A DNA stretch of 64,000 bases from Lachnospiraceae bacterium (GCA_015057625.1 SVDZ01000002.1:447802-511801); one strand, 5' to 3'. Shown: positions 8,139 to 23,719, counted from the first letter of the stretch. The notes: generated from the sequence alone by a model not told the origin. Numbers and translations: made by a program.

Positions 8139-8633
8139 ATGAAAGCAATCAAAATTAACGACATCAAAAATTTTATGAATTCTATTTTGATAAATGATAC
8201 CTTTGATTTTCTGCTGGCAAACGAGGTATCTGTCACCACTTACTGCGATTTTCATATTGATTGCCACTTAAACTCAAAATATTATGAAGAAGATGAATTA
8301 AATGAATTAAAAGACACTCATTTTGTATCTTGGAATAAAATTAAACCTCTTTGTTTTGAATTAATTAAAGGAAAAAAAGTTCCTGACAAATTCAAATTTT
8401 CACTATTGCTTGGTTCAGGCAACTATGAAAAAGTAGTCGAATTGTCAGGTACTTCTCTAAGTTCTGATTCAATTGATGCATTATTCATGCACATCACATA
8501 TGACAATGGAAGCCTCACTGTAATCTCAGCCACATCACTTTCAGTATTTACTATGGACAAATCCATTGAACATTATTGGGATGACTATGTCACTAAATTT
8601 TTAACTAAACATTTTGATATTGAAGAAATCTGA
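8139..8633 (+). CDS. Conserved hypothetical protein, possibly DUF5721
   Basis: A 164-residue cytoplasmic protein without signal or membrane segment. It has a mixed alpha/beta pattern and an acidic C-terminus (KHFDIEEI). A conserved-looking stretch lies near 125-150, VISATSLSVFTMDK. It resembles a Clostridia-only family of unknown function that I recall as DUF5721, but I cannot confirm this. The start has CAGGAGTTTTTT-ATG. It stands alone between two terminators. No role can be proposed. Confidence 0.65.
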   Translation: MKAIKINDIKNFMNSILINDTFDFLLANEVSVTTYCDFHIDCHLNSKYYEEDELNELKDTHFVSWNKIKPLCFELIKGKKVPDKFKFSLLLGSGNYEKVVELSGTSLSSDSIDALFMHITYDNGSLTVISATSLSVFTMDKSIEHYWDDYVTKFLTKHFDIEEI

Positions 8634-8656
8634 TATAAATCAGATTTCTTTTTTAT
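8625..8656. terminator. Bidirectional terminator between convergent genes
   Basis: Stem AAATCTGAT / ATCAGATTT with loop ATAA and a T-run on the plus strand. The mirrored A-run serves the minus-strand solute-binding gene. The hairpin overlaps the stop region of both genes. Confidence 0.75.
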
Positions 8657-10155
8657 TTTGCGTAATACTCATCTACCTGTTTTTGCAAATGCTCTATCAC
8701 TTTGTCATTTCCGTTTTCTTTCAGGTTATCATTGAGCATTTTCATTCCTTCTTCATAATCTACATATCCAAGGACTAATGGGTCAAAATAAAGTTTTGTG
8801 GTATATTTTAAGTTTTCATATTCCTTCTGTATTTCCGAAAGGTTCATATAAAAACCTGCCATAGGGTTTTCCATAGCTGTTTTTTCATAATTCTTTCTGT
8901 ATTCAAACTGCTCATCTTTAACAGCCATATTCTGCTTATAAAAAGTTTCGTTTCTAAAACCCCATGTCCCCGGTTCATTTCCATAAGTGTCATTAAGGAA
9001 TTCTATTTTATCGTCTTTAAGTACATAATTATAACCTTCAATTCCATATGTGATAAGCATATAGTACTCCTCATCATATTTCAATTTTTCAAGAAGCATT
9101 AACGCTCTTTCCGGATTGTTTGAAGAATTAGGTATAGCCATACAATCCTGATTTGCTGACACCTTGTATAGTGGATTAGTCAGATTAAAATAGTCCAGTT
9201 CAAGTTCATTATCTTTTCCGGACTCTCCAAGCCAGGCATCATAATTATGCACTCTTGAAACCGCTTTATTGCTTTCAAGCATAGTTTCATCTTTACTTGA
9301 TAACACATCTTTATTCCAACAACCCGATTCATACCATTTTTTTGCATTGGTTAGAAAGTATTTCATTGCCGGGCAATCACTTTCAAAATACACCTTATGT
9401 TTTTGATCATTCAAATCAATCCAGTAAAGACTTCCACTCCCTGATAAAGGATAATATCCTTTGCTCATCAAATATAAATCATCAAGTTCTATACTCGAAG
9501 AACAAAGTCCTGTGGGGTCTATATTTTCATTTTTCCCAATTTTACAACAGAAATCAATATAATCTTCAAAATTATTAAAGGAGGTTACATTATATTTTCT
9601 CATATAATCTTTTCTTACAATTGGACCAAACGTATTATAATTTGTATAATCAGATGGAATTGCATATATTTTATCATTTACGCTGACATCCTTAACCTTA
9701 GCTTCAGACATATTAATTCTACTAATTGGTGCATACTTTTCTAATAAATCATTCAATTCAAGAAATGCACCTCTTTGGGCATTTTCGTAAAAATTGAGCC
9801 AATTTGATGCATAAACCAAATCCACAGGTTGGCCTGAAGATAAAAGAATAGGATATTCCTTTGAAAAATCTCCCCAGCCAATCCACTCAATTTTAAGACT
9901 GACATTTAAATCGCGTTCTGTTAATTTATTTAATTTTTCCAATACCAAATCCATATCAGCCGGTCTTGTTCCAATTAAATACATTGTAAGATCAACGTGT
10001 TTAGAAATATCTATACCCGACTCTGACTCTATTGCACTGTTTTCTAATCTGTTATTCTTCACATTATTTAGAATGTATAATAACACTAATAATAAAGTTA
10101 CAATTAACAATATTATTATTACTATTTTTGTGATATTAGTTTTATCTTTATGCAT
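8653..10155 (-). CDS. Membrane-anchored extracellular solute-binding protein (sugar type, DUF3502-like C-terminus)
   Basis: A 500-residue family-1 solute-binding protein of the LplA/YtcQ group. It starts with a single uncleaved-looking transmembrane helix at about 10-30 and no lipobox cysteine. A binding-protein core follows from about 55. The C-terminal segment (YFDPLVLGYVDYEEGM to the end) matches the DUF3502-type tail. ATG at 10155 shares one base with the stop of the histidine kinase gene (TAATG) and has AGGAG upstream, so the two are translationally coupled. No sugar permease gene is adjacent. The protein may therefore present a glucan oligosaccharide to the kinase rather than feed a transporter; this is inference. 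Confidence 0.8.
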   Translation of the reverse strand: MHKDKTNITKIVIIILLIVTLLLVLLYILNNVKNNRLENSAIESESGIDISKHVDLTMYLIGTRPADMDLVLEKLNKLTERDLNVSLKIEWIGWGDFSKEYPILLSSGQPVDLVYASNWLNFYENAQRGAFLELNDLLEKYAPISRINMSEAKVKDVSVNDKIYAIPSDYTNYNTFGPIVRKDYMRKYNVTSFNNFEDYIDFCCKIGKNENIDPTGLCSSSIELDDLYLMSKGYYPLSGSGSLYWIDLNDQKHKVYFESDCPAMKYFLTNAKKWYESGCWNKDVLSSKDETMLESNKAVSRVHNYDAWLGESGKDNELELDYFNLTNPLYKVSANQDCMAIPNSSNNPERALMLLEKLKYDEEYYMLITYGIEGYNYVLKDDKIEFLNDTYGNEPGTWGFRNETFYKQNMAVKDEQFEYRKNYEKTAMENPMAGFYMNLSEIQKEYENLKYTTKLYFDPLVLGYVDYEEGMKMLNDNLKENGNDKVIEHLQKQVDEYYAK

Positions 10156-11969
10156 TATTCATCTCCTGTAACTTTTGGAATAATAATACGAACCGAAGTT
10201 CCTCCAAAAGAGTTTTCCATATAGTGAAGTCCATATTTTTCACCATAACACAATTTAATTCTTGCATTTATATTTTTAACGCCATATCCGCCGTCTTTAT
10301 CAAAATCTTTTAAAAGCGATTCGTTCATAGCCTCAACATCTACTCCACATCCGGAATCCTCAACAATCAATTCTACATCATTGTCAATTAGTTTTCCTGA
10401 TACAGTTATATAGATGTTCTCCTCTTCTGACATATCTTTCATACCGTGTACAATACAATTTTCAACTAACGGTTGCAAAATAATGTGTAGGGATATGAGG
10501 TCGTTAATTCTTTCATCAATATCAAAAGATAATTTAATTCTATTTTCAAATCTGTAATTCTGAATTGCGACATAATATTTTACATGATCAAATTCTTCTG
10601 AAAGTTTTGAGAATTCTTTTCCTTTATTTAAACTCAATCTGTAAAATTTAGCTAACGCCTTAGAAATATCAACGATGCTTTCTGCGCCGCAATCAAGAGC
10701 TTTCCAATTTATCAAATCCAAGGTATTGTACAAAAAGTGCGGATTAATCTGAGCCTGCAAGGCTTTTAATTCTGCCTGTTTAACAGATTTACCATTTTCA
10801 TACTCCGCCTCAATCAATCTGTCAATTTCATTTTTCATATTGTTAAAGCTGACAAACAAAGAACCAATTTCGTCATTACCCATATCTTTAACATCATCTT
10901 CAATATTTTCAAAATCTGTTTTCTTAAAATTTTCCATTTTAGCTGCAAGTTCTGAAATTCTTGTTGTTATCATTTTTGAAAATACAACAGATATTGCGAT
11001 TGCAAGTAAGAAGATTAAGAATATTACACCGATCATACCAGTCACCAACGACAAAAAGTCATTGAACAATTCTGACTCAGGAACTGCAACAATCAAAGAC
11101 CAGTCAGTACTGTTTATCGGCGTATTATTAATGTAATATTTTTTTCCGTCTACTTTTATTTTTTCCCAAACGGAACCATTGATGTAGTTATTTTTATATT
11201 TAATAAATTCACCTTTCATCAATTGGTACTGCTTTTCATCAGTGGCACCAATTAATTCTTCGTCGCCGGAAATCAAACATACAAGTCCGTTTTTGGTAAT
11301 TTTACTGTTTTTAAGAATCGAATATATATCATCATATTTGATACTTACACGCTGAACCCCGATTGTTCTTGTTAAGTCTGAAACATCTTTTATTTCTCTT
11401 AAAAATGAAATAACCTCTACCCACTTAGATGTATCTGCGCTGTATATTTTTTCTGTAGGAAGCCAAATTCCTGATTTTTTTGAATTTTTGAGTTTATCAT
11501 ATTCGACAGTCTTCTCAAAAGTATCAAGATTTCTAAACAACACTTCTTGATCAACATACATAAAATAGTTAGGTACATAAAGAGATATTTGGAAAATATC
11601 AGTAGAATTACAAAGTGAATAGATGTAATTTTCCATATACATCATGTCTTTGTTTTGAAGAATATAATCATCAGCCACTTCACTTTCACTTCTAGTCAGT
11701 ATTTCCTGCAATTCATTATCCACCTGTAGCAAATTTGATGCATACTGAACAGAGTTTGCCCTGTATTCAAGGAACTCCTTAGCCTGAGTGCAGGATTGTG
11801 AAGAAGAATATAGCAACTGCTTCTCGTATTTAACAGAAAACATAGCAATCAAAACAGCCGCAACACTTACTATTGCAGCTGATAAAATAAGTATGTAACT
11901 GATAATTGTCTTCTTTCTAATAGATATACTGTTAATAAATCTATTTATTTTTGTATTCTGACCTTTCAT
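10155..11969 (-). CDS. YesM-type sensor histidine kinase
   Basis: A 604-residue membrane kinase. TM1 is at about 21-46, an extracytoplasmic sensor domain of the Cache type at 47-305, and TM2 at 310-333. A HAMP linker spans 334-390. A His_kinase domain has the phospho-acceptor H411 in QAQINPHFLYNTLDLINW, and a GHKL ATPase domain has N in QPLVENCIVHG, DSGCGVD and GYGVKNINARI. It probably phosphorylates the AraC-type regulator encoded at 19984-21540. The glucanase genes lie between kinase and regulator, with a hairpin at 11987-12016 just before this gene. The stop overlaps the binding-protein start. Confidence 0.93.
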   Translation of the reverse strand: MKGQNTKINRFINSISIRKKTIISYILILSAAIVSVAAVLIAMFSVKYEKQLLYSSSQSCTQAKEFLEYRANSVQYASNLLQVDNELQEILTRSESEVADDYILQNKDMMYMENYIYSLCNSTDIFQISLYVPNYFMYVDQEVLFRNLDTFEKTVEYDKLKNSKKSGIWLPTEKIYSADTSKWVEVISFLREIKDVSDLTRTIGVQRVSIKYDDIYSILKNSKITKNGLVCLISGDEELIGATDEKQYQLMKGEFIKYKNNYINGSVWEKIKVDGKKYYINNTPINSTDWSLIVAVPESELFNDFLSLVTGMIGVIFLIFLLAIAISVVFSKMITTRISELAAKMENFKKTDFENIEDDVKDMGNDEIGSLFVSFNNMKNEIDRLIEAEYENGKSVKQAELKALQAQINPHFLYNTLDLINWKALDCGAESIVDISKALAKFYRLSLNKGKEFSKLSEEFDHVKYYVAIQNYRFENRIKLSFDIDERINDLISLHIILQPLVENCIVHGMKDMSEEENIYITVSGKLIDNDVELIVEDSGCGVDVEAMNESLLKDFDKDGGYGVKNINARIKLCYGEKYGLHYMENSFGGTSVRIIIPKVTGDE

Positions 11970-11986
11970 GCACTCACCGTTTATAA

Positions 11987-12016
11987 TGGAGCCGTTGCAT
12001 TATTGCAACAGCTCCA
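11987..12016 (-). terminator. Intercistronic hairpin between GH128 and kinase genes
   Basis: Stem TGGAGC-x-GTTGCA / TGCAAC-x-GCTCCA with one internal mismatch and a four-base loop. No real T-tract follows on the minus strand (CATTATAAACGG). It may be a partial terminator or an mRNA end-protecting structure that lowers expression of the kinase relative to the secreted enzymes. Confidence 0.55.
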
Positions 12017-12037
12017 TATATTTATGTCGTTTAACTA

Positions 12038-14929
12038 TCAAAAAATGACAGTTTTAACCTTTCCGTATTTACTGTATTTCTTAGTTCCATTTACAACAAC
12101 ATAAAGCTGAGCTTTAATATAAACTTTAGTTCCCTTCTTAACCTTCTTTAATTTCTTAGAAATGTAGAATGTTCTCTTAGAAGAATATGTTGTCACTTTA
12201 TTTTTGAATTTCTTATTAGTTGCATAGACTACTTTGTATTTTACACCTTTTTTAGCTTTTTTGATTGTAAGTTTTATCTTCTTGCCCTTCTTTTTAGCCT
12301 TAAGGATTTTTGGTTTTACATTTTTAATTTCCCTTGCAAGTGATTCATTTGAATTAGCTGTTGTAATTACAGTCTTTGTTGTCTCATCATTTTTTGTAGT
12401 TGGGCATATAGTTGGTGTAGCAGTCTCGCCTTGAGTTGTCGTTTCCACTTCTGTTGTCGTTTCCACTTCTGTTGTCGTTTCCACTTCTGTTGGTGTTTCC
12501 ACTTCTGTTGGTGTCTCCGGCTCAATTACAAATCCATCTTCATACGCTTTCAAATCTTCACTGTAATCTTTGTCAATTTTATAACCTTCTGGATTTCCAA
12601 GTGTAGCATATAACTTTCCTAATGCATTAAATTCTCCGTTATCATAATTGAAAATACCTGATGATCCGCCGTATTCATCATTAGGATCAAATGGGAACCA
12701 TGCATATCTCTCAACATATTCTCTCTTATCAAGTTCAGGGAGAACTTTCTTCATAAATTCATATGTCTTCTGATTTGCGCCTTCTGTGTAATTATTCCAT
12801 ATGTCGTTACCCTGACCCCATTTTGCAACACCAAATTCTGTAATCCAAATAGGTCTGTGCCACTTTTCCCAGGTATTGTCTATAAGTTCAAGGAAACTAT
12901 CTGCGTTAGCATTATCCATGTAACAATGAATTGTTATGAAATCTACTTTAAGATTTTCATCCGCATCAATTCCATCCATAAATTTCCAGAACCAATCCTG
13001 CGACCAATAAGCTCCGATTGCTGTACATGGCGAGCCAACTCTGAGCCCGCTATTTGAAAAATCATCCCAGGCATCCAATGCCTCCTGATAAGTAAGCGCT
13101 GACTGTTCATTGAAGTCCGGTTCGTTAAATCCAAGAACCTGCTTATATTTTTCGTTTTCATGGTTATTTAACCATTCACTTCCCCAATTACCCCATACCA
13201 TAGGAACAAACTGAAGATCTTTTGATGTACCTACAGCTTCTTCCATTGACCACTGATAATACCATGAGATATTTGCATCATCTGTTCTGTATAAAGAACC
13301 CCATCCAAGTCCTTTTTTAGAAATATAGAAATTGATTGGGTCTGAAATAACTACTTCATCGTTTTCAAGCACTGCTGTAAGAGTAACAGTATGGGCTTTC
13401 ACTGATGTGTTATACCATTCATATTCCATTACATCTTCATCTGTAGGTAACACTTCTACAGGCTGCTCATCATCAAATTTGATTAAATATTTCTTAACAT
13501 TGCCATCGTAGAAACTGTTATACCATTTAAAATATATTGGACCTGCAGCAACAAGTTTTTCTGCGACAGGATATTTAATTACATTTTTCTTCCAAAGAGT
13601 TTCTGTCGATAAATCAACAGGTTCTTCACCGTTAATTATATTTTCAATATCAACAGCAATAACATCCCACATCTGGGCATTTGATCCGTTGCTTTCATAC
13701 TGATTAAGCTGGATTCCTTCAGAACCTGAAGCAGATGGAACATCAATAACTTTTTTCGATCCAACATTCTTTAATGTAATATATCCCTGTTTTGCTTTTT
13801 CTTTAGTCCACTGCTGATACTTTGATTCTGTATATTTCTGCTGAACAAGTTTTGCTCCATTACTATTATCGTTATCAATGGCAATAACTTTTCCTGAACT
13901 TAATGACTGAATATAATATTTTCCACCTGAAAGTTCATTAAAAGTATAAAGCTGTGCAGCACTCTCTCTGTAAGATGTCTGAATTATAGGATTATTTTCG
14001 TTAAAACCATAAGCTTCAAGAACCTTACCGTTAGATCTTGATTTAATAATAAAATACTCCTTAGTCAGATCAATGGCACTTTTATCAATTGAAAAAGAAA
14101 TAGTCTTTGCAATTGATGTATCATTCTTATCACAAACTGTAAGTTGATATTTACCCTGATTTACAATCTCATCTCCAACTGTATACGGAATTTCAGTGAA
14201 TTCATCGCTATCAATTGGACTGTATTTAAGAGTTGCAATATATTCGCTATTATATTTTACTCCAGGTGTAACAGGTGTAAAATAAGTTCCTCCGTCACTA
14301 ACATTATAAATAGACGGAGTTATAACAATATCACTTCCGTCACCTTCAACAAAATAAATATCACTCAGGAATATATTGTGCTTATCTTCAGGATTCTTCG
14401 CTTCACTGTAATCTTTTGGATCTATATAGCCAAATAGGAATTGCAATTCCTGCGTAAGATTTTCAGTTGCAGTAAAAGTTTTCTTAAATGTCTTTTTTTC
14501 AGTTGTTAAATCAAAATATGCTCTGTAGGCATCTCTGTCTTTGATACCTGCTCTGATAGTCTTTCCTTCTTCAGCATCAGTATATGCATCAAATTGAAGA
14601 GTGTATGTCTTGTTCATCTCAACAGATACAGTCTGAATAAGAATAGCCTGCCAATCAATTTTAAACCATGAAATATTATCATAAGACCACTGATCATAAT
14701 AATTGATTGTCATATCAAATTCAAAATCATCAGTCACTTTAGCACCGGCACAATTTCCATTGTAGAAATAAGTACTCCAACCGGTAAGTCCTTCAGTAAA
14801 GTCACCGTTGACAATCTGATTGCCATCAACGGGCATTGCATAAGCTTTTTCATCAGTAATAACCGGATTACCTATAACCATCGATAAACTGAGTACAGTT
14901 ACAATCACCTTTCTAAAAATCTTCTTCAT
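12038..14929 (-). CDS. Secreted GH128 endo-beta-1,3-glucanase with ricin-type lectin domain and basic C-terminal module
   Basis: A 963-residue secreted enzyme. Signal peptide 1-32. A carbohydrate-binding-like beta domain spans about 35-195, an Ig-like segment 205-285, and a ricin-type beta-trefoil 290-425. A glycosyl-hydrolase catalytic core of the GH128 (Glyco_hydro_cc) type spans about 540-800, with N602-E603 in GFNEPD (acid/base) and E698 in WITEFG (nucleophile). A Thr/Val/Glu hexapeptide-repeat linker follows at about 820-850, then a lysine-rich Fn3-like module to the end. The start at 14929 is set by GGAGGAAG; a frame opening 33 bases earlier lacks a site. It lies 35 bases after GH81 in one operon. 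Expected substrate: beta-1,3-glucan. Confidence 0.87.
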   Translation of the reverse strand: MKKIFRKVIVTVLSLSMVIGNPVITDEKAYAMPVDGNQIVNGDFTEGLTGWSTYFYNGNCAGAKVTDDFEFDMTINYYDQWSYDNISWFKIDWQAILIQTVSVEMNKTYTLQFDAYTDAEEGKTIRAGIKDRDAYRAYFDLTTEKKTFKKTFTATENLTQELQFLFGYIDPKDYSEAKNPEDKHNIFLSDIYFVEGDGSDIVITPSIYNVSDGGTYFTPVTPGVKYNSEYIATLKYSPIDSDEFTEIPYTVGDEIVNQGKYQLTVCDKNDTSIAKTISFSIDKSAIDLTKEYFIIKSRSNGKVLEAYGFNENNPIIQTSYRESAAQLYTFNELSGGKYYIQSLSSGKVIAIDNDNSNGAKLVQQKYTESKYQQWTKEKAKQGYITLKNVGSKKVIDVPSASGSEGIQLNQYESNGSNAQMWDVIAVDIENIINGEEPVDLSTETLWKKNVIKYPVAEKLVAAGPIYFKWYNSFYDGNVKKYLIKFDDEQPVEVLPTDEDVMEYEWYNTSVKAHTVTLTAVLENDEVVISDPINFYISKKGLGWGSLYRTDDANISWYYQWSMEEAVGTSKDLQFVPMVWGNWGSEWLNNHENEKYKQVLGFNEPDFNEQSALTYQEALDAWDDFSNSGLRVGSPCTAIGAYWSQDWFWKFMDGIDADENLKVDFITIHCYMDNANADSFLELIDNTWEKWHRPIWITEFGVAKWGQGNDIWNNYTEGANQKTYEFMKKVLPELDKREYVERYAWFPFDPNDEYGGSSGIFNYDNGEFNALGKLYATLGNPEGYKIDKDYSEDLKAYEDGFVIEPETPTEVETPTEVETTTEVETTTEVETTTQGETATPTICPTTKNDETTKTVITTANSNESLAREIKNVKPKILKAKKKGKKIKLTIKKAKKGVKYKVVYATNKKFKNKVTTYSSKRTFYISKKLKKVKKGTKVYIKAQLYVVVNGTKKYSKYGKVKTVIF
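12435..12518 (-). repeat. 18-base coding repeat (TEVETT linker)
   Basis: Four full 18-base units and a partial fifth (GTTGTCGTTTCCACTTCT as read on the plus strand), encoding a hexapeptide Thr/Glu/Val linker in the GH128 protein. The first three units are identical, so this tract is prone to slippage. Confidence 0.9.
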
Positions 14930-14964
14930 ATCCGTTCTTCCTCCATATCTTTTTGTAATCACTT

Positions 14965-17900
14965 TTATTGACCATTATAGTAATATAATACTTCTTTATA
15001 GTTACTGTTAGCAACCCTTAAAATGCTATTGTACAAATAATTATGACCCTCAACTGTAGGCATTAATTTTCCCTCGTATAAGTATGCTGCCAGGTTATAA
15101 ACTGTATACTTTCTAAGTTCTGAATATCTGTATGTTCCATCGCTCAATTTTACATATGAACGCACTCCGTATTCCTCAAGAAATTCTTCTTTTGTACCTG
15201 TTCCGAATAACATTGTCATTATTCTTGTCTGTGAGTTTTCTATGTTTGAACGATTTACTGATGATATTCCGGCATTTGTTGATGCAAAGTATTTTACAAA
15301 GTCCATATCCTCTCTAACATATACATCATCTTCGTTTGGAACTTCTGATGTGAGCGAATATACCATGCCTCTCTCAACAACGTCTTTGCCATCAATACTG
15401 TTTGCTGATGAATAAAGGCATCTCACACCTTTTCCTGTATAACTAATCTGAAGACCGTTTATCTCAACCTTATCTGATACTGTGATATTGCTGTTCGAAG
15501 ATTCTCCACCAAAGACTCTCACTTCAAATATTGAGTATCCGTAACCGGTCAATCTTGTTGTTCCAATAATTTTGATGTATTTAGCTTTTGCAGCCTTATT
15601 AAACTCGATTGATTCAAGTCCTGAGCCTCTGTTTTCATCACCGTATCCGGAACCACCTGTACCATTCTTTCTACTAAATACTTCGTTAAAGTTGTTTCCG
15701 TCTAACGATGTTTCAATACTATAGTTTTTAGCAGCAGCTCCTTCCCAGTAAATCTTTATTCCTTCTAACACTTTTGCTTCAGGAAGTTCAATCATAATCC
15801 ACTGTGGATCAGCTGACTCTGTCTCCCATCTCGAATTGTAATCTTTATCGATTATGTTAGCAGCATAATTCCAACCTATCTCATTTGAAGCAGTCACTGT
15901 TGCATTTGAAAGGTCGATTTCGCTGTAAGCTGACAAATCAGCCTTGGTCAAATCATCACTGTCTGCAATCGGTGGTTTAGTTCCTTTTTTATAAATCTTA
16001 ATATAACTAAGATTAAATCCTGCAACATCAAATCTCAATTTAAGTTTTTGTCTACCTGCTTTGAGAGCAATTGTATCGCTGACATTATTCCATGATTTAG
16101 TCCGATTGAGTGTTGTTGTCTTAATTTTCCCGTCGATGTCGCTGCTTAATGTGATCACACCGGTTTTCTCATCTGATGTAGAAATAAATCTGTACTCAAC
16201 CGTGTATTCACCGTCATCCTCTACATTTGTGTCGTAAATTAGTGAATCTCCATCATCAATCCAACCAATATATCCGCCTTCAATGTCATTTGTATCTTTC
16301 ATACAACTGAAGTTTGTGTAGTAATCCTCTGCTTCAATAACTCCGGGAATATTGTGAATTGGATCAACTTCTTCAACTGCTTTATTAGTCATTTTTGATT
16401 TATCTGTATTGCTGTATGGATTTACAGATACAAGACAATGAGGTGCAACTTTTGTCTGACCAATCTTTGTATTTCCATCCTTGAACGATACTGTAATCAC
16501 CTCATCAAAAGGATTCCAAACAGTTGCTGTGTACTTACCGTTCTTCTCAAAGAACTGACAGCACGAATAGTTATCTGAATGAATCTTTGTAGATACATAT
16601 CCCTTTGCACACATATTCTGGATATACCAGTATGAGTTAAATTTTTCATCATTCGGAAGATTACCATCAACATAAACACCATTTTCATTTGTATGTGTTG
16701 CTATTTCATTATTCCATCTTCTTGCAGCTTCTTCAGGATTGCTAAGCGCAAGGTACGGCCAAAGAATATGGAACCATCCTTCAGGATCTACTGCTCCTTC
16801 AGTAATGAGTTTTTCCTGATATCTTCTCTGTGAATCTTCGTACTTTTCATAAATTTCTCCTGCTTTTTCATGATCATATCCCATATAATCAATTGCAGGC
16901 GTTACAGGCAACATATGAATTCCGTAAATACAACTTGGATTTCCTGAGAAGTATGTTCCGTTTGTGTAACCTAAGCCCCAAACCATACCAACACATCCTT
17001 CAGTATAATCTTCATCCCAACAATCTCCGTCGTAATTGAACCAGTACTGTTCAATTGCATTTACTTCGGATGTAAATCCCCAGATACCTGCATCTCTGTA
17101 TTTATCATTGCCGGTAACAAGCCCCCACAAATACAGACCTGCCCATGCAAAAGTAGCTTCTGAAGCTGATTCCTGGTTATTACCGCTGTTGTTATCTCCA
17201 TAGCCTCCTGCCCATGAGTGACCCTCATAAGGATCAAAGTTTCTCATGAAAGGAAGAAGATCATCATCCTTATCCGGATTCATGCAGTCGCGAATAAGCA
17301 GTTCTACCATATCACCGTAATCTCTGACAAATTCTTTATCATACGAAGCAAGTACAGCAGATGGGAAAATAAAGTATGCCCAAAGGAAATGATGGTCTGA
17401 AAGATTGATTGCCATACCATGATCTCCTCCGTCACCGCTTATCGCTCCCCAGCTTGTGTGATAATACAAGTAATAAGGATATTCCTCAGTTCCTTCATAT
17501 GTATACCAGTTTACAAGTATCTTTCTTAAAATACTGATAAGCTGATCTCTGAGTTCATACTGTTCAAGCTGCTCTGCAATAAGAATTCCCATAGCAATCG
17601 GATGTGTTTTCTTTCCCTGCCAATATGGATCTGCAACCCAGTAGTCCCTTGTAGCACTATCCGCAAATTCATTAAGATATTTAATCATCTCTTCTCTGTT
17701 GTAATAACTTGATTCAACAGGTTCATTAAATGCAGGAACAATACCGTTGAACTTCAATCCGTATGAGAAATGATTTCCTTCAACACATTTAAGCGTTCCT
17801 CGGATTGAATTGTATGTTTTACCATTTGTAGCAGTATCAGAATATTTCCACTGAGTCGGGAACATACACATAATTGTTTTATCTGAGAATCCATTTCTCT

Positions 17901-19797
17901 TAACTTCTGTAGTCACATTGTAATGTGTAGTCATATTTGAATTATTCTGGTCAAATTCATATGTCACATTTGTGCTCTTTACAAATGCATAAGCATGTTG
18001 GTACATATAATCAAATTCACTCTCTTTTGACAATGCTGCTATTGACATATAATTGTTATTTCCACCAAGAATAATTTTTAATTTACTTCCAATTCTTACA
18101 ACCTTTGTATTTTCAGGAAAGAACAAACCGTAAAAATGATATTGGGTTCTGTCCTCATCTTCAGGGGACTCACTCTCATTTTTAATTTCAACACCTAATT
18201 TATCAGTTATGTATTCTACTCCGTCTGCAAGCTCCACTTCACCATTATTGTTAAAGAACTTAACCAAATTGCCAAGCATTACTTCAACTGAAGAAGGATT
18301 TTTAAATATATTGTACACATATGGTGAGCCTTTAATAATTGTAGACTTCATCTTCTCTGTGTCGTCATCACTAAATACGATGCTTGTAGACCAGTCACTG
18401 CTCTCATCATATCTGGCAGCTCCGGTTCCTACAATTTCTGTAGTTCCGACAGTTAAATCAAAAAGTTTGCTGTCAGCACCCATACCTCCGTTATTGACTC
18501 TTGTGTATGTTTTATCTGCGTAATACATTGCAAGTCCGTTCTCTGTATATCTGTATACAAAAGGAAGTGCAGGCATTGTGTCGCTTAGTCTTGTATAGAT
18601 AACTGATGTCCACCAGTCATTTGAAGGAATTGGTGTAGTAACTTTATTGGTTATATATTTTGGAATTCTTGGCTGATAAAGATTTGTGTCATCAATACCA
18701 TAAGAGCCTTTTCCAAGATTTACAACCTGCTCCTCAGGAAGATTTGGTACCACCTGATTCTGCTTTGGATCTCCTTCAACATACTTATATACCTTCATCT
18801 CTCTGATGGAATAACCCGAGCCTCTACCCATTGATATTCCCTTCATCTTGATGTATCTTGCATTTACATAGAGATCAATATCCTCATCCTCGCCATTACC
18901 ATTTAACTGTCTGTACACAGTTGTATAATTCACTCCGTCTGTAGATGTCTGTAAATCATATATTCTGCCGTACTCAACCTGCCACTGAATTATGACTTTT
19001 CCGATTTCGTATATTCTTCCAAGGTCAACCACATACCACTCGTCATGATTTCCCTCAGAAAGCCAATATGTATCATAATCAGCGTCAACTGAATTTTCTC
19101 CTGCAAGCGGTGCATTTGCCCACCAAGGATTCATTGCTGATGATACAGTGACATTCTTTCCTCTTGCAAGGTTCTCTCCGAATGAATCAGGATCCGGTTT
19201 GTTTACGCCACCGGTTCCGTAAACTTTCAGTTCTCTGATGGATGCTCCCCATCCCATTTTCTCTCCGTTATCATACTGAGATTTACTGTATTTAACAAAG
19301 ACTCTCACGTATCTTCCTGTTCCTTCAAGTCCTGTCAACTCTTCTTTTAAATATGAGTAATCAACATTCTGTCCGTCTTTAGACATTACGTTTGTAACTA
19401 CTCCACCGTTGCCCTCTTCTGTAGAATATATTTTTCTCCAGTTAATTTCATCATCAGATGTGAGAATATCGTATACCACACCGTATGATGCATTGTTCTG
19501 CCAATCAATTTCAACTTTTGAAATGTTGGCTGTTTTGCCTAAATCAACATCTAACCACTGATCATTAATATTTGCAGCAGAACCCCACTGTGTCGAAAGC
19601 TTTCCGTCTGTTGCGAAAGAAGCCACATCCCCTCCGTTAACAGACGAAGAATATGCCGGTCTGTTTTCTGATAAAAGATAAATTCCATTATCATCATTAG
19701 TTCCGGCATTAATAAAACCAGTATTAAGCAAGCTTACTGCCATACTTAAGCTCAATACTGCAGCTGTAGATTTTTTCAAATAATTTACTACCTTCAT
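14965..19797 (-). CDS. Secreted multimodular GH81 endo-beta-1,3-glucanase
   Basis: A 1610-residue secreted enzyme. Signal peptide about 1-31; two F5/8-type-C (discoidin) domains at about 40-195 and 208-340. A GH81 catalytic region spans about 360-1090: PIPSNDWWTSVIYTRL near the start, then SDHHFLWAYFIFPSAVLASYD, YEGHSWAGG and NNQESASEATFAWAGLYLWG. A CBM6-like domain spans about 1160-1285 (VDPIHNIPGVIEAEDYY start) and a third F5/8C domain about 1300-1440. A C-terminal domain of about 160 residues is unrecognised. GH81 enzymes cut internal beta-1,3-glucosidic bonds in callose, curdlan, laminarin and fungal walls. The start at 19797 has GGAGG six bases upstream. First gene after the regulator; promoter overlaps its leader hairpin. 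Confidence 0.9.
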   Translation of the reverse strand: MKVVNYLKKSTAAVLSLSMAVSLLNTGFINAGTNDDNGIYLLSENRPAYSSSVNGGDVASFATDGKLSTQWGSAANINDQWLDVDLGKTANISKVEIDWQNNASYGVVYDILTSDDEINWRKIYSTEEGNGGVVTNVMSKDGQNVDYSYLKEELTGLEGTGRYVRVFVKYSKSQYDNGEKMGWGASIRELKVYGTGGVNKPDPDSFGENLARGKNVTVSSAMNPWWANAPLAGENSVDADYDTYWLSEGNHDEWYVVDLGRIYEIGKVIIQWQVEYGRIYDLQTSTDGVNYTTVYRQLNGNGEDEDIDLYVNARYIKMKGISMGRGSGYSIREMKVYKYVEGDPKQNQVVPNLPEEQVVNLGKGSYGIDDTNLYQPRIPKYITNKVTTPIPSNDWWTSVIYTRLSDTMPALPFVYRYTENGLAMYYADKTYTRVNNGGMGADSKLFDLTVGTTEIVGTGAARYDESSDWSTSIVFSDDDTEKMKSTIIKGSPYVYNIFKNPSSVEVMLGNLVKFFNNNGEVELADGVEYITDKLGVEIKNESESPEDEDRTQYHFYGLFFPENTKVVRIGSKLKIILGGNNNYMSIAALSKESEFDYMYQHAYAFVKSTNVTYEFDQNNSNMTTHYNVTTEVKRNGFSDKTIMCMFPTQWKYSDTATNGKTYNSIRGTLKCVEGNHFSYGLKFNGIVPAFNEPVESSYYNREEMIKYLNEFADSATRDYWVADPYWQGKKTHPIAMGILIAEQLEQYELRDQLISILRKILVNWYTYEGTEEYPYYLYYHTSWGAISGDGGDHGMAINLSDHHFLWAYFIFPSAVLASYDKEFVRDYGDMVELLIRDCMNPDKDDDLLPFMRNFDPYEGHSWAGGYGDNNSGNNQESASEATFAWAGLYLWGLVTGNDKYRDAGIWGFTSEVNAIEQYWFNYDGDCWDEDYTEGCVGMVWGLGYTNGTYFSGNPSCIYGIHMLPVTPAIDYMGYDHEKAGEIYEKYEDSQRRYQEKLITEGAVDPEGWFHILWPYLALSNPEEAARRWNNEIATHTNENGVYVDGNLPNDEKFNSYWYIQNMCAKGYVSTKIHSDNYSCCQFFEKNGKYTATVWNPFDEVITVSFKDGNTKIGQTKVAPHCLVSVNPYSNTDKSKMTNKAVEEVDPIHNIPGVIEAEDYYTNFSCMKDTNDIEGGYIGWIDDGDSLIYDTNVEDDGEYTVEYRFISTSDEKTGVITLSSDIDGKIKTTTLNRTKSWNNVSDTIALKAGRQKLKLRFDVAGFNLSYIKIYKKGTKPPIADSDDLTKADLSAYSEIDLSNATVTASNEIGWNYAANIIDKDYNSRWETESADPQWIMIELPEAKVLEGIKIYWEGAAAKNYSIETSLDGNNFNEVFSRKNGTGGSGYGDENRGSGLESIEFNKAAKAKYIKIIGTTRLTGYGYSIFEVRVFGGESSNSNITVSDKVEINGLQISYTGKGVRCLYSSANSIDGKDVVERGMVYSLTSEVPNEDDVYVREDMDFVKYFASTNAGISSVNRSNIENSQTRIMTMLFGTGTKEEFLEEYGVRSYVKLSDGTYRYSELRKYTVYNLAAYLYEGKLMPTVEGHNYLYNSILRVANSNYKEVLYYYNGQ

Positions 19798-19854
19798 TTT
19801 TTCCTCCATTATTTGTCAATTCCGATTTCAATAATTATTTCTTTTTGGCGAGAA

Positions 19855-19897
19855 ACAGAAAAAGGGCCTATTGTCTATAAAACAATAGTACCCTTTA
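19855..19897 (-). terminator. Terminator after the response-regulator gene, overlapping the GH81 promoter
   Basis: Long stem (AAAGGG-xx-CTATTGT paired with ACAATAG-xx-CCCTTT as read on the minus strand, 7-base loop) followed by TTTTTCTG. It lies between the regulator stop and the GH81 start. Confidence 0.7.
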
Positions 19898-19913
19898 ATA
19901 AAAATCTAAACAA
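19885..19913 (-). promoter_or_regulatory. Candidate promoter of the glucanase operon
   Basis: Minus strand TTGTTT (19913-19908), 17 bases, TACTAT (19890-19885). The -10 lies inside the 5' arm of the terminator hairpin, so a transcript started here would begin in the loop, near 19878, and lack the stem. Confidence 0.5.
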
Positions 19914-19983
19914 CAAAATCACGGAAGGTGTTAACTATTTTACAAATAAGAATGATTTTTTCCCATTACATAATCTTTTTATA

Positions 19984-21540
19984 TTATCTCTCTCTGTAAT
20001 CTTTTGGGCTCACACCTACGTTTTTTCTAAATACCTTTGTAAAATAACCCGCATCATTATATCCCACCATCTCGGCCACTTCAGATAATTTAATACTTCT
20101 GTCCATAATCAGCTCCTTAGCGGAATTGATTCTTACAGCAGTAATATACTGTCCCACTGTTGTTCCGAATTTTTTCTTAAATACAGAGTTCATATAATTC
20201 GGTGTGATATATACACTATCTGCAATGTCATTAAGACAAAGATTTGGATTGGTATAATTTTTTTTAATATATTCAATAATGTCAATTATCAGTTTACTGT
20301 TGTTGATAAAATCCTGAACATTTGAAAAATATTCATTGAGTAATCCCTTTACGTAAGCGTCACATTCATCCAATGTATCGAGAGTGTTTAATTTTTCCAT
20401 AATAAACGAAACTTTTTCGGCATCGTTTAGCATTGGCTCTTCTTCTTTTGCAAGCCACGCAATATTGATTATTGTCTCAACAATTCTAAAATAAACTGCC
20501 TTTACATGACTCACCAAAACTCCTGTCTTTTTAGAGACAATACTTTTTACATTATTGATAATGTTATAGGAAGTCTCCCTGTCATATCGCTTTAGCGCTT
20601 CTGATAGATTATTGAAAATTTCATCGCTTAAATTTAACTTTTCATTACTGTTTTCGTTCTTTTTAAGATAATGATTTATTTTTCCGTAACCAAGAAAAAA
20701 TAATTGCTGTAACATTAGCACTCCGGTCTCATACGAATTATTTACATTTAATATATTTGATACTGTATTTCCAAAAGAACCGTTTGCTTTTAGTTCAGGA
20801 TGACCAACTAAAGCCTTTTGCAAATTATTGTAAAGTAATTTAATTTCACTCGATTCAGCTTCATTATATCCAATTAAAAAAATGATATATCTATACTCTT
20901 TAACAAAATACAAATACTCAAATCCGTCCATACAAGATGAAGTTAACTCTATCAAATCAGATATGGCTTTTTCTTCACCGTTAGATTTAAAAATTACAAC
21001 ATTAAATCTGGTTTTGTTCAAAATATTAGTGTTGATTTTTTGAGCAAACTGCTTAACCTCGTCTACTGTAAGTCTTCCTTTGATAAGCTTTTGTAAAAAT
21101 GTTTGCGTGTACATTTCTCTGCTCTCTTCTATAACATCATCAATAGTTTTTTTAATGTTGTAGGATTCTTCAAGCTTACTTACAGCTTTACCTATTGCAC
21201 TTTCAACCTCTTCTACATCAATAGGCTTTTCCACATAACTTACAGCTTCTAGTTCAATTGCACCTTTTAGATATTCTTTATCTGAATATCCACTCAGAAA
21301 TATAATTCTGCAATCAGGAAGAATACTCTTAATCTGGTTACACATTTCAATACCATTCATTCCGGGCATTCTCACATCAGAAATAATCAGATCCACAGGA
21401 TGCTCACTTATAAAGTTGATTCCATCTTTCCCTGATGAAGCAGTATAAACATTTTCAATATTATATTTTTCCCAATTAACATGAGACGCCAGTCCCTTTC
21501 TTGTAACTGACTCATCATCAACAATTAGCACGCTATACAT
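19984..21540 (-). CDS. YesN-type response regulator with AraC DNA-binding domain
   Basis: A 518-residue regulator. The receiver domain is at 1-120 with acidic pocket D8-D9, phospho-acceptor D55 in IISDVRMPGMNG, and K near 104. A long middle region spans 120-415. The C-terminal AraC/XylS two-helix-turn-helix domain is at about 420-518, ending FRKNVGVSPKDYRER. The start at 21540 has GGAGGTCGGA-ATG; the upstream frame has no site. It is the expected partner of the YesM-type kinase at 10155-11969 and presumably activates the glucanase genes just downstream. Its own promoter (21564-21592) faces away from htpG, and a CIRCE element lies 14 bases upstream of it. Confidence 0.93.
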   Translation of the reverse strand: MYSVLIVDDESVTRKGLASHVNWEKYNIENVYTASSGKDGINFISEHPVDLIISDVRMPGMNGIEMCNQIKSILPDCRIIFLSGYSDKEYLKGAIELEAVSYVEKPIDVEEVESAIGKAVSKLEESYNIKKTIDDVIEESREMYTQTFLQKLIKGRLTVDEVKQFAQKINTNILNKTRFNVVIFKSNGEEKAISDLIELTSSCMDGFEYLYFVKEYRYIIFLIGYNEAESSEIKLLYNNLQKALVGHPELKANGSFGNTVSNILNVNNSYETGVLMLQQLFFLGYGKINHYLKKNENSNEKLNLSDEIFNNLSEALKRYDRETSYNIINNVKSIVSKKTGVLVSHVKAVYFRIVETIINIAWLAKEEEPMLNDAEKVSFIMEKLNTLDTLDECDAYVKGLLNEYFSNVQDFINNSKLIIDIIEYIKKNYTNPNLCLNDIADSVYITPNYMNSVFKKKFGTTVGQYITAVRINSAKELIMDRSIKLSEVAEMVGYNDAGYFTKVFRKNVGVSPKDYRER

Positions 21541-21563
21541 TCCGACCTCCATACGATATTCCA

Positions 21564-21592
21564 ATTATACAATAATAAAATGTTCTGGTCAA
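21564..21592 (-). promoter_or_regulatory. Promoter of the response-regulator gene
   Basis: Minus strand TTGACC (21592-21587), 17 bases, TATAAT (21569-21564), 24 bases before the start codon. Near-consensus. Confidence 0.75.
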
Positions 21593-21605
21593 AAAAATAT
21601 TTTTG

Positions 21606-21632
21606 TTAGCACTCTTTTTTGTCGAGTGCTAA
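21606..21632. promoter_or_regulatory. CIRCE operator (HrcA binding site)
   Basis: Perfect match to the CIRCE consensus: TTAGCACTC, nine bases, GAGTGCTAA. It is the binding site of the heat-shock repressor HrcA. It sits between the divergent promoters of htpG and the AraC-type regulator, upstream of both -35 boxes. Confidence 0.95.
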
Positions 21633-21639
21633 TTTTCTA

Positions 21640-21668
21640 TTGACTTTTTTAATTTAGGGATTTACTAT
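21640..21668 (+). promoter_or_regulatory. Promoter of htpG
   Basis: TTGACT (21640-21645), 17 bases, TACTAT (21663-21668), starting 8 bases after the CIRCE element and giving a leader of roughly 60 bases. Confidence 0.65.
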
Positions 21669-21733
21669 TACATATAGGCATTAAAGGTTGGTTATTGCCA
21701 CCTTTAAAATATGATAAAAAGGAGATTAATAAT

Positions 21734-23719
21734 ATGTCAAAACAGGGTAATTTATCTATCAATAGCGAAAATATATTCCCTATTATCAAAAAGTGGTTAT
21801 ATTCTGATCACGATATTTTCTTTAGAGAATTAGTTTCAAATGGCTGTGATGCCATCACTAAATTAAAAAAACTTTCTTTAATCGGCGAATATACTTTAGA
21901 TGATAATGAAGAATTTAAAGTCGAAGTTATAGTAAATCCAACAGACAAGACTATCACCTTTAAAGATAACGGTCTTGGAATGACGGAAGATGAAGTAAAT
22001 GAATACATTAATCAGATTGCTTTTTCCGGAGCTGCAGCTTTTCTTGAGCAGTATAAAGACAAAGCAAACGAAGACCAGATTATCGGTCATTTCGGTCTTG
22101 GTTTCTACTCAGCATTCATGGTTGCCGACAGAGTAACAATTGAAACTCTTTCATATAAAGAAGGTTCAAAAGCTGTATTTTGGGATTGTGAGAACGGTCT
22201 TGAATATGAGATGGATGACTGCGACAAGACAGACAGAGGTACTACTATCACTTTATATTTAAACGATGACAGTGTTGAATTTTCTAATGAGTTCAGAGCA
22301 AATGAAGTTCTCGATAAATATTGTTCATTTATGCCCGTTAATATTTACCTCTCAAAAGAAGGTGGCGAGCCTGAATATGAAACTGTTGATGAGGCTGATG
22401 TTACAGAAAAAGATACTGTAATTGAACACATTGTTGAGCCTGCAAAAACTGAAGAAAAAGAAAATGAAGACGGCACAAAAGAAACTGTAGAGACTGTACC
22501 GGAACAGAGAAAGGCAAAAATCCTCAGACGTCCTACTTCTATCAGTACTCCTGTTCCACTTTGGACAAAACATCCAAACGAGTGTACAAAAGAGGAATAC
22601 TTAGACTTCTACAGAACTACATTTAAAGATTTTAAGGAGCCTCTCTTCTGGATTCATTTAAATATGGATTATCCATTCAACCTTAAAGGAATTTTATATT
22701 TCCCTAAAATTAACACTGAATATGAATCTATTGAAGGCGTTATAAAATTATATAACAATCAGGTATTTATCGCCGACAACATCAAGGAAGTTATTCCTGA
22801 ATTCTTAATGCTCTTAAAAGGCGTTATCGATTGTCCTGATCTTCCGCTCAATGTATCACGTTCAGCTTTACAGAATGATGGTTTTGTTAAAAAGATTTCT
22901 GATTATATCACAAAGAAAGTTGCAGATAAGTTATCAGGAATGTGCAAGACAGAACGTGAAGAATACGAAAAATATTGGGATGACATTAGTCCTTTCATTA
23001 AATACGGTTGTCTTAAAGATGAAAAATTCTGTGAGAAAATGTCAGATTATATCTTATTTAAAGATATCGATGGCAGATATCTTACATTTAAGGACTGCTT
23101 AGAACAAAATAAAGACAAACATGAAAATACAATTTTCTATACAAACGATCCTGTTCAGCAGAGCCAGTACATCAATATGTTCAAAGATCAGGAAATAAAT
23201 GTTGTAGTATTGACAGACACAATTGATCAGCCTTTCATTTCACAATTAGAGGTTAAGAATGAAGGTGTTAAATTCAAACGTATCGATGATGATTTGAATC
23301 AGTCATTTAAGGAAGAACTCGATCAGGAAGAGCAATTATCAATGACTGATAAACTGGTACCTGCTTTTGACAAAGCTCTTGGACGCGAGGTAGATATTAG
23401 TGTAGTTAAACTTAAAGATGAAAACATCTCATCAATGATTACTCTTTCTGAAGAAAGCAGACGTATGCAGGATATGATGAGACAATATGGAATGTCTGGT
23501 ATGGATCCTTCATTATTTGGTGGTTCAAATGAAACATTAGTACTCAACGCTAACAACAAACTTGTTAAATATATAATTGACAATCCAGAAGGCGAAGTTA
23601 CTGACTTAGTATGCAAGCAGATTTATGATCTTGCAGTTTTAAGTCACACTCCTCTCAATCCGGAATCAATGACTGCCTTTATTGAAAGAAGTAACAAAAT
23701 ATTAGAAAAGTTAATTTAA
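21734..23719 (+). CDS. htpG: HtpG, Hsp90-family molecular chaperone
   Basis: A 661-residue cytoplasmic Hsp90. The N-terminal GHKL ATPase has E32, N36 and D39 in FFRELVSNGCDA, D78-N-G-x-G-M, and GHFGLGFYS. A highly acidic linker follows at about 225-265. The middle domain carries LPLNVSRSALQ, and the C-terminal dimerisation domain ends near SHTPLNPESMTAFIERSNKI. The length is slightly above the usual 620-640, accounted for by the linker. The start at 21734 follows AAAAAGGAGATTAATAAT. The CIRCE element predicts HrcA control; in Bacillus subtilis htpG is not a CIRCE gene. A strong terminator follows. Confidence 0.97.
   Translation: MSKQGNLSINSENIFPIIKKWLYSDHDIFFRELVSNGCDAITKLKKLSLIGEYTLDDNEEFKVEVIVNPTDKTITFKDNGLGMTEDEVNEYINQIAFSGAAAFLEQYKDKANEDQIIGHFGLGFYSAFMVADRVTIETLSYKEGSKAVFWDCENGLEYEMDDCDKTDRGTTITLYLNDDSVEFSNEFRANEVLDKYCSFMPVNIYLSKEGGEPEYETVDEADVTEKDTVIEHIVEPAKTEEKENEDGTKETVETVPEQRKAKILRRPTSISTPVPLWTKHPNECTKEEYLDFYRTTFKDFKEPLFWIHLNMDYPFNLKGILYFPKINTEYESIEGVIKLYNNQVFIADNIKEVIPEFLMLLKGVIDCPDLPLNVSRSALQNDGFVKKISDYITKKVADKLSGMCKTEREEYEKYWDDISPFIKYGCLKDEKFCEKMSDYILFKDIDGRYLTFKDCLEQNKDKHENTIFYTNDPVQQSQYINMFKDQEINVVVLTDTIDQPFISQLEVKNEGVKFKRIDDDLNQSFKEELDQEEQLSMTDKLVPAFDKALGREVDISVVKLKDENISSMITLSEESRRMQDMMRQYGMSGMDPSLFGGSNETLVLNANNKLVKYIIDNPEGEVTDLVCKQIYDLAVLSHTPLNPESMTAFIERSNKILEKLI

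Follow-up and report, generated by a model that had tools for sequence, protein, structure and literature searches.

A proposed importer-derived three-component sensor encoded with secreted beta-1,3-glucanases in a Lachnospiraceae bacterium

Described three-component systems and the layout of the locus

In CuaDSR of Ruminiclostridium cellulolyticum, an established case of its kind, a solute-binding protein (SBP) makes contact with a sensor kinase through the latter's extracellular domain (PMC10384115). The system comprises an SBP separate from the transport SBP (CuaD), a kinase (CuaS) and a YesN/AraC-type regulator (CuaR); it responds to a small product of a polysaccharide that separate extracellular enzymes degrade. 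In XylFII-LytS of Clostridium beijerinckii, a second established case, the SBP is seen docked on the kinase's extracellular domain in a solved complex of the two (Li et al. 2017, cited in PMC9769921). As outlined in the citing account, this system joins a xylose SBP to a LytS sensor domain built as a four-helix bundle and manages carbohydrate import. Four reported three-component systems control transporter genes (PMC10384115), whereas the operon described here contains two secreted glucanase genes.

The locus lies in the window, a stretch of 64,000 nucleotides from a Lachnospiraceae bacterium, and consists of five genes at 8653-21564, all on the minus strand (as are the features below unless stated), which encode, in order of transcription, a YesN regulator, a GH81 protein, a GH128 protein, a YesM kinase and an SBP. 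The reading favoured here, and considered likely as a whole, is that a three-component sensor derived from an importer is wired to secreted beta-1,3-glucan depolymerases, with the fungal wall as the likeliest substrate. The parts were identified by ORF calling, Pfam and PDB matches; NCBIfam supplied a specific name for none of the five proteins. Genes on either side are unrelated to the unit, with htpG-like and glgA-like genes on one flank and a DUF5721 gene and a peroxiredoxin gene on the other. No permease is encoded between HtpG (21695) and DUF5721 (8633), and none was found across 8139-23719. A sequence-only reading of the window had described a YesN regulator and a YesM kinase together with GH81 and GH128 enzymes and an SBP, and no local permease; every part of that description was borne out, and its coordinates proved correct to within a start codon.

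The sister species G001 has all five genes in the same order, with the same neighbors on either side. A second relative, G002, retains the regulator, GH81 and GH128 genes before its contig ends; kinase, SBP and DUF5721 genes are found together on a short contig from the MAG RUI379. GH81, kinase and regulator are 83-85% identical among species, the SBP 75-76% and GH128 67-69%. The changes are overwhelmingly synonymous in each gene, as illustrated by the SBP, with pN 0.16 versus a pS of 0.76 at which synonymous sites are saturated. Because gene order is kept in G001 and non-synonymous changes are far fewer than synonymous ones, the five-gene set is not a product of chance; the operon is real and conserved. 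The named relatives are metagenome assemblies, and their labels suggest a ruminant origin.

Proposed sensor components, control region and ancestry

The SBP gene (8653-10155) encodes an extracellular, membrane-anchored protein, proposed here as a co-sensor, of the SBP_bac_1/8-like type with a DUF3502 domain (E 1e-15); its structural match, 5swa (E 8e-37), is a sugar-type SBP. The N-terminus contains one strongly hydrophobic helix, with no lipobox and no evident cleavage motif in the window protein or in two other records, in agreement with the membrane anchoring claimed from sequence alone. Lacking a lipobox in all three records and having no adjacent permeases, the protein does not conform to a lipoprotein transport SBP, and it has no paralogue in its own genome. 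Its coupling to the kinase, also part of the earlier claim, is evident at the gene level: in the window the kinase stop and SBP start codons share nucleotides (TAATG), and the SBP gene lies directly 3' of the kinase gene in all records seen. Six cysteines within residues 203-338 (203, 204, 218, 261, 279 and 338) are conserved in the two other records, seemingly a large number for an SBP.

The kinase (10155-11969) and the regulator (19984-21564, with a probable start at ATG 21552) have the features of a YesM-YesN pair. In the former, His_kinase (PF06580, E 6e-25), HATPase and HAMP domains and H411 are present, and two membrane helices lie either side of an extracellular domain that is dCache-like, its match falling just below the Pfam cut-off. 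The latter combines a receiver (Response_reg, E 5e-27), in which D63 is intact, with an AraC-type HTH (HTH_18, E 2e-20), and its orthologues in G001 and G002 are 83% identical and occupy the same position beside GH81. The set is comparable to CuaDSR in composition, each having an SBP, a sensor kinase and a YesN/AraC regulator, and, by analogy to XylFII-LytS, its SBP would pair with the extracellular domain of its kinase. The details differ, however: CuaD is a predicted lipoprotein whereas the window SBP has a membrane helix, CuaS is without a predicted sensor domain whereas that of the window kinase is dCache-like, and CuaDSR controls an ABC importer and a cellobiose phosphorylase, whereas the window operon has two secreted glucanases and no importer.

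A promoter-like TTGACC-17-TATAAT element (21592-21564) precedes the regulator gene and is conserved in three species. Between the regulator and GH81 genes, the three-species alignment also contains a hairpin followed by a T run (19864-19893, minus strand; -16.4 kcal/mol, z -4.4), which is a probable terminator of the regulator gene or else a leader hairpin of GH81; upstream of the hairpin is an AT-rich block that is well conserved. The hairpin shares sequence with a possible -10 element, TACTAT, whose -35 partner is poor, which fits an activated promoter. In a scan of ~408 kb of the genome with a motif derived from the AT-rich block, only its own site scored above shuffles, and no regulon is claimed because scores elsewhere did not exceed them. 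Both the conserved hairpin and the outcome of this shared-operator scan count against the favored model. At the other end of the operon, a pattern scan alone picked out a stem-loop with a T run (8622-8651, plus strand) where the facing DUF5721 gene ends; it adjoins the 3' end of the SBP gene and is a possible terminator between the two.

The origin of the SBP-kinase pair was traced through relatives of the SBP in 397 sampled Lachnospiraceae genomes, with gene surroundings read for 48 loci. An ABC permease adjoins the SBP relative in 43 of the 48, and a lipobox is present in 40 of those 43, fractions that are descriptive because the 48 were chosen as top matches together with matches whose alignment reaches into the N-terminus. 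Four of the five permease-less relatives adjoin a kinase and a regulator (L075, L079, L080 and L081); lipoboxes were called by a regular expression, which probably missed those of L079 and L081. L080, on contig C144 of a genome from another genus (G081), has a regulator-kinase-SBP set whose SBP carries a membrane helix and no lipobox, with no permease on the available contig. A separate search with the kinase sensor domain led to seven genomes, where many of the closest relatives outside the genus lie a few kb from an SBP relative. The seven complete loci so recovered (L124-L130) encode a regulator, a kinase, two permeases (permB, permA) and an SBP, in that order.

These loci, of the YesM/YesN-ABC importer type with an LplA-type SBP (DUF3502), are homologous to the window unit in both the kinase sensor domain and the SBP and appear to represent the ancestral form, but in them both permeases and the lipid anchor of the SBP are retained, and the neighboring enzymes belong to other families. 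The simplest reading of these gene neighborhoods is joint inheritance of SBP and kinase from a regulator-kinase-ABC importer locus, with loss of the permeases and a change in how the SBP is anchored. The enzymes beside related importer loci are diverse, including rhamnosidase-like (GH78-like), GH106, GH30, GH42 and GH123 proteins. Deducing the ligand from the ancestral loci was considered and rejected on this account: because the enzymes that adjoin them are diverse and unrelated, importer ancestry gives no firm pointer to the ligand, glucan or other, a further point against the favored model.

Secreted glucanases, a shared module and glucan genes elsewhere

The GH81 gene (14965-19809) encodes a secreted multidomain endo-beta-1,3-glucanase of 1614 aa (PF17652, E 6e-46; 322 bits to structure 6fop, with further matches to BhGH81 structures). 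Its catalytic domain aligns over the full length of solved GH81 enzymes, with the general acid D805 and the E880/E884 pair kept. PF00754 matches three stretches of the protein: two F5/8-type domains at residues ~46-341 and a C-terminal, CBM32-like one (15532-15897), the latter also identified by PDB matches. A CBM6 module (residues 1160-1272; 15994-16332; PF03422, E 5e-10) weakly matches the CBM6 of a GH16 endo-1,3-glucanase, 5fui. The adjacent gene (12038-14962, with a likely start at ATG 14929) encodes a secreted GH128 beta-1,3-glucanase of 974 residues (PF11790, Glyco_hydro_cc, E 7e-43; best structures 6uaq and 6ufl), in which the catalytic glutamates E614 and E709 are kept within NEPD and TEF motifs. 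Catalytic domains and residues are alike in the window enzymes and in BhGH81 (5t4a), 6fop and 6uaq, but the window proteins are longer and modular. The GH81 protein has F5/8C and CBM6 domains and a genus-restricted C-terminal domain; to the 6uaq fold the GH128 protein adds a ricin-type lectin domain (PF14200), a Thr/Glu-rich linker and a Lys-rich C-terminal domain.

The genus-restricted module of the GH81 protein (residues 1448-1614, ~165 residues; 14968-15468) recurs ~55 times in the genome; Pfam has no match for it, and a profile search of the PDB gave no credible one. A profile search of the 397 sampled family genomes found it in none outside this genus. Invariant positions are G5, G34, Y115, Y131 and Y146, in the numbering of the aligned stretch, and a structure prediction from two sequences reached a pLDDT of 42. 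The proteins concerned have a signal-peptide-like N-terminus; most copies end ≤15 residues before the C-terminus, and a few lie just after that N-terminus; a role in surface attachment or sorting is a guess from this position. Among the proteins that bear it are seven with GH18, several with GH16 and GH81, two with a GH87-type alpha-1,3-glucanase and one with GH76.

The sequence-only reading had called the locus self-contained, a description that does not survive inspection of the whole genome (3.10 Mb, 25 contigs), which holds five GH81 and five GH128 genes in total, four of each outside the window unit, and a laminaribiose phosphorylase locus on another contig. The latter, at ~106-151 kb of contig 22 (~100-151 kb when L027, L131 and L026 are taken together), encodes a GH81 protein of 2195 aa, a GH17-like protein, two or three GH16 proteins, a LacI regulator, ABC permeases and a divergent GH94-like protein that matches the laminaribiose phosphorylase 6ggy at 1080 bits; the locus is likely the route for import and phosphorolysis of glucan products. 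It further includes an SBP within a 1031-aa protein, a DUF5696 protein and an NHL/Yip1 protein. With importer and phosphorylase encoded elsewhere, the window unit is not a full Gram-positive polysaccharide utilization locus.

Another locus of this genome (L029; contig C4, 1-13 kb) encodes YesN, two permeases, an SBP, YesM, a phosphoglucomutase and a GH94 protein. The GH94 protein was considered as a glucobiose phosphorylase, an assignment rejected in that its closest match is chitobiose phosphorylase (1149 bits), and by predicted gene content L029 is a complete locus for chitobiose uptake and use. A further candidate importer at 425-429 kb of contig C25 (L023), near a second GH81 gene, had been taken from the sizes of three ORFs for an SBP with two permeases; it was discarded because Pfam identifies the ORFs as chaperonin, DNA glycosylase and HAD hydrolase.

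Proposed mechanism, rival readings and implications

The three-part sensor suggested by the sequence-only reading stands as the best explanation of the locus, as judged from its gene neighborhood and from the parallels with CuaDSR and XylFII-LytS: SBP, kinase and regulator genes lie together, the SBP has no permease of its own, and the arrangement is kept in the sister species. What the sequences show is the identity of each gene, its conservation, the intact catalytic residues, the missing lipobox and permeases and the pattern of ancestry; ligand, SBP-kinase contact and regulon are inferred. GH81 and GH128 would cut beta-1,3-glucan outside the cell, and an oligosaccharide released by basal enzyme would bind the helix-anchored SBP. 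By analogy with CuaDSR and XylFII-LytS, the loaded SBP would dock on the dCache-like domain of the kinase dimer and alter its activity, the kinase would phosphorylate the regulator at D63, and the phosphorylated regulator would presumably activate the GH81-GH128-kinase-SBP genes in a positive feedback. Such a loop would provide feedback on a polysaccharide that is itself unable to enter the cell, and the response to a small product of extracellular degradation is the likeness to CuaDSR proposed here. Uptake and breakdown of products would fall to other loci, most plausibly that on contig 22 with its laminaribiose phosphorylase and ABC permeases.

Three other readings bear on this model, the first of which concerns the substrate. 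GH81 and a GH87-type alpha-1,3-glucanase domain each occur in 4 of 61 genomes, the same four (three of this genus and G009), or 2 of 59 genera; GH81 is rare in the group, in line with the remark of the sequence-only reading that the substrate class is seldom described there. GH76 is found at high score in those four genomes and one other, GH18 matches number 13 across the window's own genome, a chitin-type CBM5/12 is present there, and a GH10 xylanase is absent from the genus; GH18, GH81, GH128, GH76 and GH87 have been treated as signs of mycolytic gut bacteria (PMC6520439). Because the GH87-type enzyme, GH76, the GH18 matches and the chitobiose phosphorylase share this genome, the fungal wall is favored over laminarin or callose with moderate confidence, and of the fungal, algal and callose sources listed earlier the first is retained while the other two are disfavored. 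According to established enzymology GH81, GH128 and GH16 attack beta-1,3-glucan whatever its origin, and a natural substrate of algal laminarin, plant callose or bacterial curdlan keeps some weight as an unlikely alternative; against it stand the same four signs, CBM5/12, the co-occurrence of GH81 and GH87 and the lack of GH10. Plant polymers are also possible targets because the module-bearing secretome has three GH43 and two pectate-lyase-like proteins. As to the source of fungal wall, chitin is a wall component of the anaerobic fungi of the rumen (PMC7609409), possible other sources being feed moulds and yeasts. G009, from another genus, has GH81, a GH87-type domain, GH76 and six GH18 matches and is without the C-terminal module; it is a candidate second fungal-wall degrader by gene content.

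The remaining readings concern the sensor itself. It is quite improbable that the SBP is still a transport protein feeding a permease pair encoded elsewhere while the kinase senses alone through its dCache domain, which could bind the ligand directly, a point that counts against the favored model. All close relatives of the SBP are transport SBPs, ABC permeases occur elsewhere in the genome, and CuaS alone still responds weakly to cellobiose (PMC10384115). However, the lipobox has been lost, the SBP gene directly follows the kinase gene in every record seen, with the overlap in the window, no other SBP of this family is encoded in the genome, the permeases seen there are not specifically close to the partners of this SBP family, and permease-less relatives mostly adjoin kinase and regulator genes. 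A three-component sensor might instead recognize another fungal-wall or general sugar cue, with the glucanases as just part of the response, a doubtful reading but one with more in its favor: the rhamnosidase-like, GH30, GH42 and GH123 neighbors of related importer loci imply many ligands within the SBP family, and the genome attacks chitin and mannan too. Both enzymes of the operon nonetheless act on one type of linkage, and conservation extends to the operon as a whole.

Taken as an importer-derived sensor, the locus clearly exemplifies the conversion of an ABC importer locus to dedicated sensing, in which permeases were lost and the lipid anchor was replaced by a membrane helix. The sensor sits directly with secreted depolymerases instead of a transporter, and by analogy an SBP-kinase mechanism is likely. 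More tentatively, the genus may be a dedicated degrader of fungal walls, in which the C-terminal module fixes enzymes to the surface or exports them and the window operon serves as the beta-1,3-glucan switch; on this speculative view the module would represent a novel type of domain for surface attachment or sorting. Reports from the 1990s describe rumen bacteria with enzymes that degrade fungal walls, as well as chitinolytic clostridia of the rumen (Morgavi 1994 and Kopecny 1996, cited in PMC7200989), and no paper naming a Lachnospiraceae genus specialized on fungal walls was found in the literature. It is to such a genus that the surrounding genome points, a prospect of greater interest than the locus alone.
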